A stretch of 64,000 bases of DNA from Hyphomicrobium sp. CS1GBMeth3 (GTDB lineage: Bacteria > Pseudomonadota > Alphaproteobacteria > Rhizobiales > Hyphomicrobiaceae), in the NCBI RefSeq assembly GCF_900117455.1, contig NZ_FPHO01000003.1:2322501-2386500 (forward strand), read 5' to 3'. The translations under genes were made by a program, and so were the position numbers. The notes below the pieces were generated by a model that saw only the letters and a program-made list of their open reading frames with translations, did not search any database and was not told the DNA's origin. Positions 4,107 to 42,488 of this stretch are shown piece after piece (position 1 is the stretch's first letter; each line of letters opens with the position of its first letter).

Positions 4107-4913
4107 TCAGCGGTTGAGAAGTTTAAGCACTTTGTCGTGCAGCGCCGGATCGCCGGAGGCTACGATTTGCCCGCCGTTCGTCGCGGGCCGCCCGTCCCAG
4201 GTGGTGACGCGCCCGCCGGCGCGCTCGACGATCGGGATCAACGCTACGATATCGTAGGTCTTGAGACCGGCCTCGATGACGAGGTCGACGAAGCCGGACG
4301 CGAGCAGGCAGTAGGCGTAGCAATCGCCGCCGTAGCGCGTCATGCGCGTCTCGCGGCTCACGCGCTGGAAGCTGTCGAGCTCGGCGCTGGTCGTGAATAG
4401 GTCCGGGCTGGTCGTCATGACGATGGCGTCTTTGACGCGTGGGCAGGCACGCGTCTTCATGCGCCGCGCCTTGCCGTCCGCCTCGCGCCGGTAGGCCTGC
4501 GTCGCGCCCGACCAGAAGCGCTCTCCCGTGAACGGCTGATCCATGAGCCCGAGCACGGGTGCACCCTCGTGCAGCAGACCGATCAGCGTGCCCCAGAGCG
4601 GCATGCCGGTGATGAACGAGCGCGTGCCGTCGATGGGGTCCACGACCCATTGAAAGGCCGCATCGCTCCGTTCTGTGCCGTACTCCTCGCCGATGACGCC
4701 GTGGTCCGGGGCGCGGCCGCGAATCATTCGGGCTATGGCGCGCTCGGCCGCCTGATCGGCCTTTGTGACGGGATCGAACGCATCCGCGCCGGCCTTGTTG
4801 GCGACAGCGAGGGCGCGCCGGAATTGAGGTCTGATCACCGCTCCCGACTGATCGGCCAGATCGTGTGCCAGTACGAGGAGTTCTTTGTAGCGGGAGCGGG
4901 ACGGGAAAGGCAC
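4107..4913 (-). CDS. hisN: Histidinol-phosphatase, inositol monophosphatase family
   Basis: 268 aa of the IMPase/SuhB/HisN superfamily of Mg-dependent phosphatases. Metal-binding motifs are present: GEEYGTE (Glu76/77) and WVVDPIDGTRSF (Asp92, Asp95), and a C-terminal WDGRP segment replaces the usual WD-x-AA loop. The sequence looks closest to the HisN type of actinobacteria and alphaproteobacteria, which removes phosphate from histidinol phosphate in histidine synthesis; an inositol-phosphatase role cannot be excluded. The start is GTG with no clear ribosome binding site, so the N terminus is uncertain. The three small RNAs lie just upstream in the opposite direction. Confidence 0.85.
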   Translation of the reverse strand: MPFPSRSRYKELLVLAHDLADQSGAVIRPQFRRALAVANKAGADAFDPVTKADQAAERAIARMIRGRAPDHGVIGEEYGTERSDAAFQWVVDPIDGTRSFITGMPLWGTLIGLLHEGAPVLGLMDQPFTGERFWSGATQAYRREADGKARRMKTRACPRVKDAIVMTTSPDLFTTSAELDSFQRVSRETRMTRYGGDCYAYCLLASGFVDLVIEAGLKTYDIVALIPIVERAGGRVTTWDGRPATNGGQIVASGDPALHDKVLKLLNR

Positions 4914-5079
4914 GATTGTTGTCCAGAACTTAAGTTGCGGCAGGATGAAGCGATAAGAGCAGTCGGGGCAAGAGTAATTCGAATTACATTAGAGTTGAGT
5001 AGAAGTAATGTGTCGAAATATGCATGTTGCGTGTAAGCACCATATTCACTCTAAACACTGCTAAAAAAGGTGGCACGAG

Positions 5080-5108
5080 TTGCCGCCTGCCGCGAACAGG
5101 AGCATAAA
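5080..5108 (+). promoter_or_regulatory. Sigma-70-like promoter of small RNA copy 1
   Basis: TTGCCG (5080-5085), a 17-base spacer and CATAAA (5103-5108). This predicts transcription starting about 5113, exactly where the first hairpin of the RNA begins. Confidence 0.5.
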
Positions 5109-5112
5109 AAAT

Positions 5113-5208
5113 CTGCGGTTTCGCGGGACACGTCTTCGCCGCCGCAGCCCAATACGGGCGTTTCCTCCCTAGACCTGGGCCGTTCGCTCGCACGAACGGC
5201 CTCTTTTT
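5113..5208 (+). ncRNA. Small RNA of the alpha-r8/suhB (MmgR) type, copy 1 of 3
   Basis: Predicted ~96-nt RNA. It has a 5' stem CTGCGG/CCGCAG (5113-5118/5142-5147) and a small GCCC/GGGC hairpin (5147-5150/5156-5159). An unpaired UUUCCUCCCU follows at 5161-5170, then AGAC. The terminator is a 9-bp stem (5178-5186/5193-5201) with a T-run to 5208. UUUCCUCCCU in single strand before a GC-rich terminator is, to my knowledge, the strictly conserved element of the alpha-r8 family, whose member MmgR controls polyhydroxybutyrate storage in Sinorhizobium. The core can pair with Shine-Dalgarno sequences. The terminator stem differs from copies 2 and 3 by compensating changes (TTC/GAA versus TCC/GGA), so the fold is supported. 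Confidence 0.75.
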
Positions 5209-5349
5209 GGCGTAAACGGCATCGCCGTGCGTCCGTCGGGAGAAATCCATCTTTCCGCTTGCCTTCCGCGTACGGCTCTTCCGCGGGGTTATGGCAGCTC
5301 TGCAGTTTTTGCACTTTCCTTTCGGAAATGCTCATCCGATATTTTGCAG

Positions 5350-5443
5350 TGCGACATCGCCAAGTATCCTTGGCCTGTTGCAGCCCTCCTTGGGCGTTTC
5401 CTCCCTAGACTTGGGCCGTCCGCACCTGGACGGCCCTTTTTTT
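5350..5443 (+). ncRNA. Small RNA of the alpha-r8/suhB (MmgR) type, copy 2 of 3
   Basis: Same architecture as copy 1. A 5' hairpin is built from GACA...TGTT enclosing GCCAAG/CTTGGC. The short hairpin GCCC(5383-5386)/GGGC(5392-5395) has loop TCCTT. The identical UUUCCUCCCU core is at 5397-5406, followed by AGACTT. The terminator stem GGGCCGTCC/GGACGGCCC (5413-5421/5428-5436) is followed by seven T (5437-5443). The 5' end is uncertain because no clean -35/-10 pair is visible; TATTTT at 5340-5345 is a candidate -10. Confidence 0.75.
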
Positions 5444-5592
5444 GTTTGCGGGCGGTTGCGACCGTTTAACGCATGAAAACAAAGCCGAATTTCGTCCCCT
5501 TGAAATGGCGGTACGGATTTCTTTGCCGGCCAGGTAGCTGTGGCGCTTTGAGCGCGCTTGGCGCATTGCAACATTTCGTGACGCGGGAGGGC

Positions 5593-5621
5593 TTGCAGTT
5601 TGCGGCGCTGCAGCATAAATT
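5593..5621 (+). promoter_or_regulatory. Sigma-70-like promoter of small RNA copy 3
   Basis: TTGCAG (5593-5598), 17-base spacer, TAAATT (5616-5621). The predicted start (~5627) coincides with the 5' hairpin of copy 3. Confidence 0.5.
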
Positions 5622-5626
5622 AAATA

Positions 5627-5709
5627 GCGTGATCCCCTCGGGATCACGAGCCCTCCTTGGGCGTTTCCTCCCTAGACTTGGGCCGTCCATTTTGGACGGC
5701 TCTTTTTTT
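5627..5709 (+). ncRNA. Small RNA of the alpha-r8/suhB (MmgR) type, copy 3 of 3
   Basis: Predicted ~83-nt RNA, close to the 77 nt of MmgR. A perfect 9-bp 5' hairpin (CGTGATCCC 5628-5636 / GGGATCACG 5640-5648, loop CTC) comes first. Then GCCC/GGGC (5650-5653/5659-5662) with loop TCCTT, the core UUUCCUCCCU at 5664-5673, AGACTT, and a terminator stem (5682-5688/5694-5700) with a T-run to 5709. From the small hairpin to the terminator it is nearly identical to copy 2, while the 5' hairpin is unrelated in sequence. It converges on the FGase-like gene that ends at 5741. Confidence 0.78.
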
Positions 5710-5740
5710 GGTCAATTGCCTGTCGATCGCAAGCGTTCTT

Positions 5741-6637
5741 TTATTCCGCGGCGTCACGCTTCGCGAGCAGTCCCGGCACCGTCGAAAGCATCATATTGAC
5801 GATGCGGGTGATGTCGGTCTTGAGCCGTTCGAAACCGGGCGACGGAGTGAAGCGCTGCTCGTCGAGATAGAGCGCGCGGTTGATCTCGATCTGCAGCGCC
5901 TGTACGCCGCGGTAAGGCCGGCCGTAATGCTCGGTGATGTAGCCGCCGGCATAGGGCCTGTTGAGCTGCACGTCGTAGCCTTCGGCGGCGAGCGTGTCCC
6001 TGAGGAATCGTGTGAGCTCGGGGTCGCACGCCGCGCCGAAGCGGTCGCCAAGCACGAAGTCGGGACGCGGTCCGCTGCTTTGCGCCATTTGCGCAGACGG
6101 CATCGAATGGCAGTCGATCAGGATGGCATAGCCGAAGCGCGCCTTGGTCTCGGCGATCAGCGACTGCAGTGCCTCGTGGAATGGAAAATAGAGCTGCTCG
6201 ATACGCGCCAGCGCTTCCTCGACGCAGAGCCGCTCGCGATAGATCTCTTCGCCATCGGCAACGATGCGCGCGACGGTACCAAGCCCGCCGATCACGCGCA
6301 CGGATTGGCTGTTGGCATAATCGGGCAACGGGTCGGCGAAGAGCTCGGGGTCAAGCTCGTAAGGCTCGCGGTTGACGTCAAGGTAGGCGCGCGGGAAGCG
6401 CGCCGCGATCATCGGAACGCCAAGCTCTGCGGCCCCGCGAAACAGATCGTCGACGAAGCAGTCCTCGCTCTTGCGCAACGTCATCGGATCGAGGCGCGAC
6501 TGCTCGAGAAACGCGCGCGGATAGACGCGGCCCGAATGCGGTGAGCACAACACGAAGGGCGCTTGCTGCACGCGCGGCGCGAGAATGGTGAACGGCGGCT
6601 TGAGCTCGGCGTTGAGCTTGAATTTCTGCGCTGTCAT
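5741..6637 (-). CDS. N-formylglutamate amidohydrolase family protein
   Basis: 298-aa protein of the FGase (HutG-like) family, zinc-dependent hydrolases that release formate or amide groups from N-formylglutamate. Family landmarks are the N-terminal SPHSGR (32-37), the RAYLDVNREPYELDP segment, the DCHSMPS segment near the middle (metal ligands), and GGYITEHYG. No other hut genes lie nearby, so a role in histidine breakdown is not supported by context; many Rhizobiales have such orphan copies of unproven substrate. The ATG at 6637 gives the family's normal N terminus. Confidence 0.85.
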   Translation of the reverse strand: MTAQKFKLNAELKPPFTILAPRVQQAPFVLCSPHSGRVYPRAFLEQSRLDPMTLRKSEDCFVDDLFRGAAELGVPMIAARFPRAYLDVNREPYELDPELFADPLPDYANSQSVRVIGGLGTVARIVADGEEIYRERLCVEEALARIEQLYFPFHEALQSLIAETKARFGYAILIDCHSMPSAQMAQSSGPRPDFVLGDRFGAACDPELTRFLRDTLAAEGYDVQLNRPYAGGYITEHYGRPYRGVQALQIEINRALYLDEQRFTPSPGFERLKTDITRIVNMMLSTVPGLLAKRDAAE

Positions 6638-41228: not shown

Positions 41229-42488
41229 ATGACGAATTTCCGATCCGACTTTCTCACGATCCTGACCGAGCGCGGATTTATCCATCAATGCTCGGACGCC
41301 GATGGCGTAGACGCGCTGGCCCGCGACGGCAAGATCGTGGCGTACGTGGGTTACGACTGCACGGCGCCGTCGCTGCACATCGGCCACCTGCTGTCTATCA
41401 TGATGCTGCACTGGCTGCAGAAGTCGGGCGCGGGCAAGCCCCTCGCGCTGATGGGAGGCGGAACGACGCGCGTCGGTGATCCCTCGGGCCGCGACGAGAC
41501 GCGGAAGATCCTGACCCTTGAGACGATCGAGGACAATAAAAACCAGATCAAAACCGTCTTTTCGAGGTTTCTCTCCTTCGGAGAAGGCAAGACCGAAGCG
41601 CTGATGCTCGACAATGCCGAGTGGCTCTCCGCGCTCAACTACATCGACTTCCTGCGCGACGTCGGTCGACACATGTCGGTCAACCGCATGCTGTCGATGG
41701 ACTCGGTGAAATTGCGCCTCGAGCGCGAGCAGGAGCTGTCGTTCATTGAGTTCAACTACATGCTGTTGCAGGCCTACGATTATGCCGAGCTGGCGCGTCG
41801 CTATGGCTGCAACCTGCAAATGGGCGGCTCCGACCAGTGGGGCAACATCGTAACGGGTATCGACCTCGGCCGCCGCATGGGCGTGCCGCATCAGCTCTAC
41901 GCGCTCACCTGTCCGCTGCTGACGACGGCCTCGGGCGCCAAGATGGGCAAGACCGCATCCGGCGCCGTGTGGCTCAACGAGGCGCAGCTCTCGGCCTACG
42001 ATTACTGGCAATACTGGCGCAACACCGAAGACGCCGACGTCGAGCGCTTCTTGAAGCTGTTCACGACGCTGCCGCTCGACGAGATCGCCAAGCTTGCAGC
42101 CCTCGGTGGGGCCGAGATCAACGAGGCGAAGAAAGTGCTCGCGACCGAGGCGACGGCGATGGTGCACGGCCGCGAGAACGCCGAAGCCGCCGCCGAGACG
42201 GCACGCACAACGTTCGAGCAGGGCGGACTCGCCTCTGGTCTGCCGACGGTCGAGATCAGTCTCGCGGACCTGAAGGCCGGCAGCGGCCTTCTGAGCCGGT
42301 TCGTCGAGGCCGGTCTCGTCGCCTCCACGAGCGAGGCGCGCCGCCAGATCAAGGGCGGCGGCCTCCGGGTCAACGACAAGGTGGTCACGGACGAGAAGGC
42401 CAAGCTGTCGGAAGCCGATCTGACGCCCGAGGGCGTGATTAAGCTGTCGCTCGGCAAGAAGAAGCACGTCCTCCTGAAGCCGGCGTAA
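41229..42488 (+). CDS. tyrS: Tyrosyl-tRNA synthetase
   Basis: 419-aa class I synthetase. PSLHIGHLL gives the HIGH motif, GGSDQWGNI the tyrosine pocket, and [10 protein letters not shown] the KMSKS-type loop. The C-terminal S4 RNA-binding domain ([19 protein letters not shown]) is complete. Confidence 0.97.

Follow-up and report, generated by a model that had tools for sequence, protein, structure and literature searches.

Why would a bacterium keep three adjacent copies of the same small regulatory RNA (sRNA)? The question is raised by a 64,000-nucleotide stretch of the genome of Hyphomicrobium sp. CS1GBMeth3 (hereafter the window; G000:C3:2322501-2386500 of a 4.03 Mb genome), where three genes of the alpha-r8 family (suhB/mmgR, Rfam family RF00519) lie in tandem. 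Adjacent alpha-r8 copies are already known from the literature and, as described below, the array is a usual feature of its family rather than a rarity. What is new here is the wiring: an upstream control that apparently differs between copies, a complementary stretch in a second sRNA related to alpha-r9, and further copies carried by phages.

We compared the window with 4227 Rfam families and obtained four matches above cut-off, one tRNA and three RF00519 matches (gathering cut-off 41 bits), all three full length and on the plus strand.

5113..5208, plus strand: alpha-r8 copy 1; Rfam match 5140-5216, 54.0 bits, E 2.6e-8; copy-specific 5' hairpin, GCCCAAUACGGGC mini-hairpin, core, and terminator stem at 5177-5202
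5350..5444, plus strand: alpha-r8 copy 2; Rfam match 5376-5451, 72.7 bits, E 4.2e-13; terminator stem at 5413-5436
5627..5709, plus strand: alpha-r8 copy 3; Rfam match 5643-5717, 69.4 bits, E 3e-12; terminator stem at 5680-5702

Each copy consists of a GCCC/GGGC mini-hairpin, then the GUUUCCUCCCUAGAC core, then a terminator, and so carries the hallmark of alpha-r8, an unpaired UUUCCUCCCU core 3' of a weak hairpin followed by a Rho-independent terminator. The Rfam model is confined to the final ~77 nt of each unit, and the starts at 5113, 5350 and 5627 are plausible by eye. Between 4900 and 5800 there are six terminator-like sites (shuffled sequences give a mean of 1.5), three of which are the alpha-r8 terminators. 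The mini-hairpin loop reads GCCCAAUACGGGC in copy 1 versus GCCCUCCUUGGGC in copies 2 and 3, a difference kept throughout the genus with small changes. For copies 1 and 2, a 5' hairpin is predicted in all 8 genus genomes (-9.4 to -16.8 and -16.4 to -23.2 kcal/mol, respectively), and the 5' stretch of copy 3 folds less regularly in these genomes (-2.2 to -15.1 kcal/mol). When we aligned 74 of the 76 family copies, omitting two from genome G025 that have long terminator loops, pairing in the terminator helix reached 95.8%, both sides had changed in 7 of its 10 pairs, and none of 500 shuffles, uncorrected for relatedness, reached any of five measures of whole-structure covariation. A chance origin of the array was rejected on the RF00519 scores and this stem covariation. 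The first-pass annotation, made from the letters alone, had read these units as three plus-strand alpha-r8/suhB (MmgR) RNAs with one plan and an anti-Shine-Dalgarno core; the model scan, the anatomy and the terminator scan bear it out, and the TTC/GAA versus TCC/GGA exchange that it saw in the terminator stem belongs to a helix that covaries across the family. Judged by sequence, these are three complete alpha-r8 (MmgR/SisA-type) genes, which would be transcribed into near-identical anti-Shine-Dalgarno RNAs that presumably repress mRNAs.

The upstream regions divide the copies. When each copy was aligned with its position-mates in the 8 genus genomes, the blocks upstream proved conserved within each copy and different between copies.

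5025..5042: conserved box TGTTGCG-n5-GCACCA between copy 1 and the divergent hisN gene, from the genus alignment
5080..5108, plus strand: putative copy-1 promoter TTGCCG-17-CATAAA with a conserved CGAACAGG in the spacer; conserved in 8 genomes, assigned by eye
5294..5316: conserved box upstream of copy 2, GCAGCTCTGCAG ... TTTTTGCACTT, from the genus alignment
5345..5353: putative PhaR/AniA-type operator TGCAGTGCG in the start region of copy 2; motif in 8/8 genus genomes
5562..5570: candidate PhaR-type motif CGCATTGCA upstream of copy 3
5593..5621, plus strand: putative copy-3 promoter TTGCAG-17-TAAATT; conserved in 8 genomes, assigned by eye

The copy-3 promoter itself contains GGCGCTGCA (5604-5612), one mismatch from the PhaR-type motif, and the 98 bases upstream of copy 1 hold no PhaR-type site. 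A sigma-70 consensus scan of 4900-5800 found no promoter. By eye, the half-site order of the box at 5025-5042 does not fit a role for NtrC and the spacing of the copy-2 box does not fit sigma-54; the former box may equally well serve hisN as copy 1. In Sinorhizobium meliloti, mmgR is reported to be repressed by AniA/PhaR, with a motif core of YGCRNYGCR and a listed mmgR site that contains TGCACCGCA (PMC12542648), and to be induced by NtrC (PMC7143759).

We counted YGCRNYGCR in the 98 bases upstream of each alpha-r8 copy, where 0.16 occurrences are expected as background, in genomes of the family that we take to be Hyphomicrobiaceae. The motif preceded 2 of 30 first array copies, 40 of 42 later copies and 5 of 6 single copies; in a 32-genome subset (without G008, G025 and G027) the counts were 2/28, 38/40 and 4/4, and the contrast between first and later copies gave a Fisher p of ~3e-14, uncorrected for relatedness. 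The two exceptional first copies belong to G033 (L146) and G032. The two copies of G033 correspond in alignment to copies 2 and 3 of G010 (L123), a genome of the same genus, so that the first, PhaR-free copy of G033 has probably been lost; G032 still departs from the pattern. Among named loci, a count that omits six loci repeating genomes of this family as well as copies with a deviant core, the motif preceded 13/13 later copies, 32/33 single copies (some of which, such as L076 and L099, are array members) and 5/13 first copies, the latter from two Ancylobacter, Azorhizobium, Xanthobacter and one Rhizobiales metagenome-assembled genome. Together these counts indicate that PhaR-type sites are usual for alpha-r8 in the loci counted and that in Hyphomicrobiaceae they are mostly missing from the copy closest to hisN. 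The genome encodes a PhaR (PF07879, 107 bits). The sites predict binding by PhaR, and the copies are apparently under different control. The separate control that had been offered at first as one of two possibilities, beside gene dosage, thereby gains evidence, and the copy-specific boxes together with the split in PhaR-type sites favour it over mere dosage.

A second RNA emerged when we searched the genome for sequence antisense to the alpha-r8 core (GTCTAGGGAGGAAACG, up to 3 mismatches). The search returned 24 places, as did a backward control: four were the alpha-r8 genes, one had two mismatches and 19 had three. The place with two mismatches, at G000:C3:2205529, recurs in relatives; the other matches, about as many as in the backward control, were set aside (L194, L203, L204, L205 and L206 were inspected).

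G000:C3:2205406-2205594, minus strand, outside the window: partner RNA of ~190 nt, divergent from proS (L208, L217)

This partner has a promoter of the GTGACA-17-TATGGT type and a terminator AGAGCAAGGC/GCCTTGCTCTTT, and its GGGGCCCAGGUCUAGGGAG is complementary to alpha-r8 CUCCCUAGACYUGGGCC, which spans the core and the 5' terminator arm. Among 20 partner sequences from the family, conservation is 0.90 in the complementary stretch, 0.93 in the terminator and 0.56 elsewhere. A DNA search found the partner in 8/8 genus genomes and 1/32 others. A covariance model (R1) matched in 22/60 family genomes at E 0.1, and a second (R2), built from 20 family sequences, in 64/199 genomes of the order at E 0.01; some matches of both were antisense strands of alpha-r8 genes, which we excluded as partners (3/28 loci, and 9/18 in another set, defined by a regular expression for the core). 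proS was the neighbour in 20/28 newly fetched R1/R2 loci, with a 21st match, only 23% identical, left uncounted.

In other families, the corresponding loci beside proS are recognised as alpha-r9 (RF02343, whose consensus reads AgUCuUGGGAgGA), a family with 27/199 order genomes above cut-off and 50/199 at E 0.001; in the class sample it gave 0/241, a scan run without positive control. R2 also matches loci recognised by RF02343, for example in G475, G051, G382, G537, G490 and G516. In S. meliloti alpha-r9 is the RNA described as SmrC9, sra32 or SmelC289, likewise beside proS, and the partner resembles it in its divergence from proS, its TGAC-n17-type promoter (gaTGAC-n17 is given for sra32; PMC2245857), its GUCUNGGG segment and its CAAGG/CCUUG terminator. 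It differs in being too divergent for RF02343 and in having a longer complement to alpha-r8. Given the adjacency to proS, the promoter and terminator type and the shared R2 model, we call the partner an alpha-r9 homologue, which it is by position and shared model and not as a member by the Rfam cut-off.

At each locus we then compared the strongest duplex formed with the alpha-r8 core to those of dinucleotide-shuffled sequences. For 45 R1/R2 loci the mean z was -5.6, versus 0.0 for the reversed core, and z was at or below -3.9 in 43 of 45; the value for L376 is invalid, as this locus had been excised at a wrong position (it stands at -40.7 in the 28-locus set). These loci had been chosen partly through the complementary stretch, which makes the set found with RF02343 the fairer one. 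In that set, 30 of the 51 matches listed, 30/30 loci lie beside proS and 30/30 contain GUCUUGGGAGG; the mean duplex z was -4.6, with at most 3/200 shuffles as good, and the reversed core averaged -0.65. The predicted pairing also extends beyond the order. In three genomes of an outside family (f47), alpha-r8 CCUAAACUC/CCUAAACUU faces GAGUUUAGG/AAGUUUAGG: the proS-linked loci carry GAGTTTAGGGAGGA in two genomes and AAGTTTAGGGAGGA in one, the alpha-r8 of the same genomes TCCTCCCTAAACTC or TCCTCCCTAAACTT, and although both RNAs depart from the form seen in Hyphomicrobiales, the stretch is still fully complementary. In another family (f117), alpha-r8 CCCTGAACTT meets AAGTTTAGGG with one G-U pair, and proS is not adjacent within the stretch examined. 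Across 26 genomes, native pairs averaged -43.07 kcal/mol versus -41.36 (sd 0.32) for permuted pairs, and 0/10000 permutations were as good, a result that we read, given relatedness and a one-sided effect, as ~two compensating events and not as a p-value. By these comparisons, the alpha-r9 relatives keep a stretch complementary to the alpha-r8 core across the order, and compensating changes accompany it in a family outside. MmgR is not known to have a direct base-pairing partner (PMC7143759, PMC12559287), and for alpha-r9 the literature surveyed gives only predicted targets, none shown experimentally. Narrow-term searches of open-licence literature, a weak negative, found no paper that links the two RNAs. 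The co-changing complementarity makes both questions, the partner of MmgR and the target of alpha-r9, directly testable.

Among the closest described systems is that of Caulobacter crescentus, where SisA, an alpha-r8 RNA, is reported to repress mRNAs and CrfA to sponge SisA (PMC12559287). As described there, SisA-D and CrfA share with the present case several alpha-r8 siblings, unrelated promoters and one sRNA complementary to the core; SisA-D are dispersed, whereas the three copies here are adjacent. The candidate antagonist here, beside proS, is likened to CrfA by described function and not by sequence. By this analogy, we propose that alpha-r9 is an antagonist of alpha-r8. Compared with MmgR of S. 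meliloti (PMC12559287), with which the copies share the mini-hairpin, the UUUCCUCCCU core, the terminator and a PhaR/AniA-type promoter site, the present genome has an adjacent trio, whose first member lacks a PhaR-type site, and a prophage copy.

We hypothesize that the alpha-r8 genes, each of which has a terminator and a conserved upstream region to itself, are separately controlled. PhaR/AniA, which senses polyhydroxybutyrate (PHB), would act on the later copies 2 and 3, on the side of the N-formylglutamate amidohydrolase (FGase) gene; copy 1 would be free of PhaR and governed through its own conserved boxes; and the alpha-r9 relative would pair with the core and the 5' terminator arm and so titrate all three, much as CrfA does. 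We think this joint explanation of the array probable, if by no wide measure. If it is true, it would offer a reason for keeping tandem sibling sRNAs, in that one copy stays free of PHB control. The broader version, in which alpha-r9 is a dedicated alpha-r8 antagonist across Hyphomicrobiales and beyond (the three f47 loci), the copies of Hyphomicrobiaceae are split in their control and widespread phage copies that lack PhaR-type sites can tap the network, stands in our estimate at an even chance. Reported expression is compatible with antagonism: in S. meliloti, seven sRNAs that include SmrC9 are described as differentially expressed, most of them falling in stationary phase and only SmrC15 accumulating, and suhB/sm8 RNA is described as increasing with cell density and stress.

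Several observations weigh against these proposals. The exact PhaR-type motif upstream of copy 3 is present in 6/8 genus genomes and absent in two, and RF02343 misses the partner of this genome (no match to E 10, and none in the genome as a whole). The proS-side locus L396 shows no excess complementarity, and the reversed-core control reaches z -4.0 in 1/30 loci (L411). Much of the order has alpha-r9 GUCUUGGG against alpha-r8 CCCUAGAC, one mismatch within the duplex. Alpha-r9 of f47 and f117 is predicted to pair with the alpha-r8 of Hyphomicrobiales at -42.8 and -46.4 versus -42.2 for the native pair, as well or better, and the gain in energy is one-sided, with a drop only for alpha-r9 of Hyphomicrobiales on alpha-r8 of f47 (-33.2 versus -41.7). 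Independent compensatory events are few, about two.

Complementarity has no direction, and the same pairing would arise if alpha-r8 regulated alpha-r9 or if the two RNAs destroyed one another, in which case alpha-r9 would have other targets and alpha-r8 would be its antagonist. Caulobacter SisA is reported also to lower CrfA (PMC12559287), and fliM and smc01800 have been predicted as sra32 targets through another segment (PMC2245857); we consider this family of alternatives unlikely, though it is the strongest of those weighed here. Slightly more doubtful is gene dosage, by which redundant copies would raise alpha-r8 output and their promoter differences would be drift: the core is identical in copies 1-3 and nearly so across the family, as dosage would have it, but the upstream blocks are kept within each copy throughout the genus while differing between copies, and PhaR-type sites separate the first copy from the later ones. 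That the alpha-r9 segment is just purine-rich and Shine-Dalgarno-like, meeting anti-Shine-Dalgarno RNAs by chance (such as alpha-r14-type CCUCCUCCC loops) or providing a small open reading frame (ORF) with its ribosome site, is improbable: GGGAGG does resemble a Shine-Dalgarno sequence and forms a duplex of -8.7 to -13.4 kcal/mol with CCUCCUCCC, but the alpha-r8 core pairs at -27.6 to -47.0 kcal/mol, the conserved complement extends through UAGACUUGGGC, which such a match does not need, and an AUG after the stretch is absent in 3/8 genus genomes (G001, G005, G007).

The genome holds a fourth alpha-r8 copy, in a prophage: a repressor-like gene is close by, and genes for terminase, portal and major head proteins lie no more than 20 kb away.

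C2:43266-43338 (L149:2501-2573): fourth alpha-r8 copy, 51.2 bits

It has no PhaR-type site upstream, and the identical stretch recurs in a viral contig (L257). An exact 19-base core pattern occurs in at least 120 stretches of viral contigs. We fetched 80 of them (L227-L306), and 80/80 scored with a model (R3) built from 74 family alpha-r8 copies; the core was present by selection, the terminator was not, and the terminators were very varied. The 76 viral copies with enough upstream sequence represented 72 distinct versions, 6 with the PhaR-type motif, which is about background, and the 80 stretches showed no FGase, hisN or proS gene. Neighbouring ORFs (120 chosen from 268 listed) matched integrase, terminase, head and tail families, and 13 matched NusG (antiterminators); as 2/120 matched a porin family, some few of the stretches may stem from the host. 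Copies of the host regulator alpha-r8 ride on many phages, the prophage of this genome included. Partial matches, covering 46-55% of the query, occur in three annotated phage records. Narrow-term searches of open-licence literature, again a weak negative, found no paper on phage-borne alpha-r8, and a single exact alpha-r9-type pattern, GGTCTRAGTCTTGGGAGGA, occurred 0 times in viral contigs. Separately, a Microcystis (cyanobacterial) phage record, PP395640.1, contains an alpha-r8-like stretch at 42326-42360 inside an annotated hypothetical protein.

Two protein-coding genes flank the array.

4107..4913, minus strand: inositol-monophosphatase (IMPase)-family gene (hisN-like), divergent from the array; PF00459, 176 bits
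5741..6637, minus strand: FGase gene, convergent with the array; PF05013, 267 bits

In most species one alpha-r8 gene is reported to lie beside an FGase gene (PMC12559287), a usual but not obligatory trait of alpha-r8 that is present here, and the array site is the classical alpha-r8/FGase locus. The first-pass annotation had correctly named the IMPase-family neighbour but left out the FGase gene, which marks the locus. It had further called a tight triple unusual, and here the relatives disagree. Counting RF00519 matches above cut-off, at most 1 kb apart and on the same strand, we found three adjacent copies in 8/8 genus genomes; of 28 genomes from the family's other genera, 4 had three copies, 19 had two, 4 had one and 1 had none, so that 23/28 have two or three adjacent copies and a rare triplication can be set aside. 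In 24 genomes from other families of the order, 3 had two copies, 12 had one and 9 had none. Multiple copies, some adjacent, are reported for many genera (PMC12559287, citing Lagares 2016). Among the matches listed for the class sample, 177/290 genomes match RF00519 at E 0.001 and 137 above cut-off, with three-copy clusters in family f49 (G081, G179, G249). Nor is adjacency to an IMPase-family gene noteworthy, as had been suggested: on 80 named hisN loci, R3 gave 90 matches, which fall in 62 loci, with at least two matches in 23 of these, and we rejected a special suhB/hisN link. The titles of hisN loci with alpha-r8 include Ancylobacter, Azorhizobium, Afipia, Bradyrhizobium, Filomicrobium and Rhizobium.
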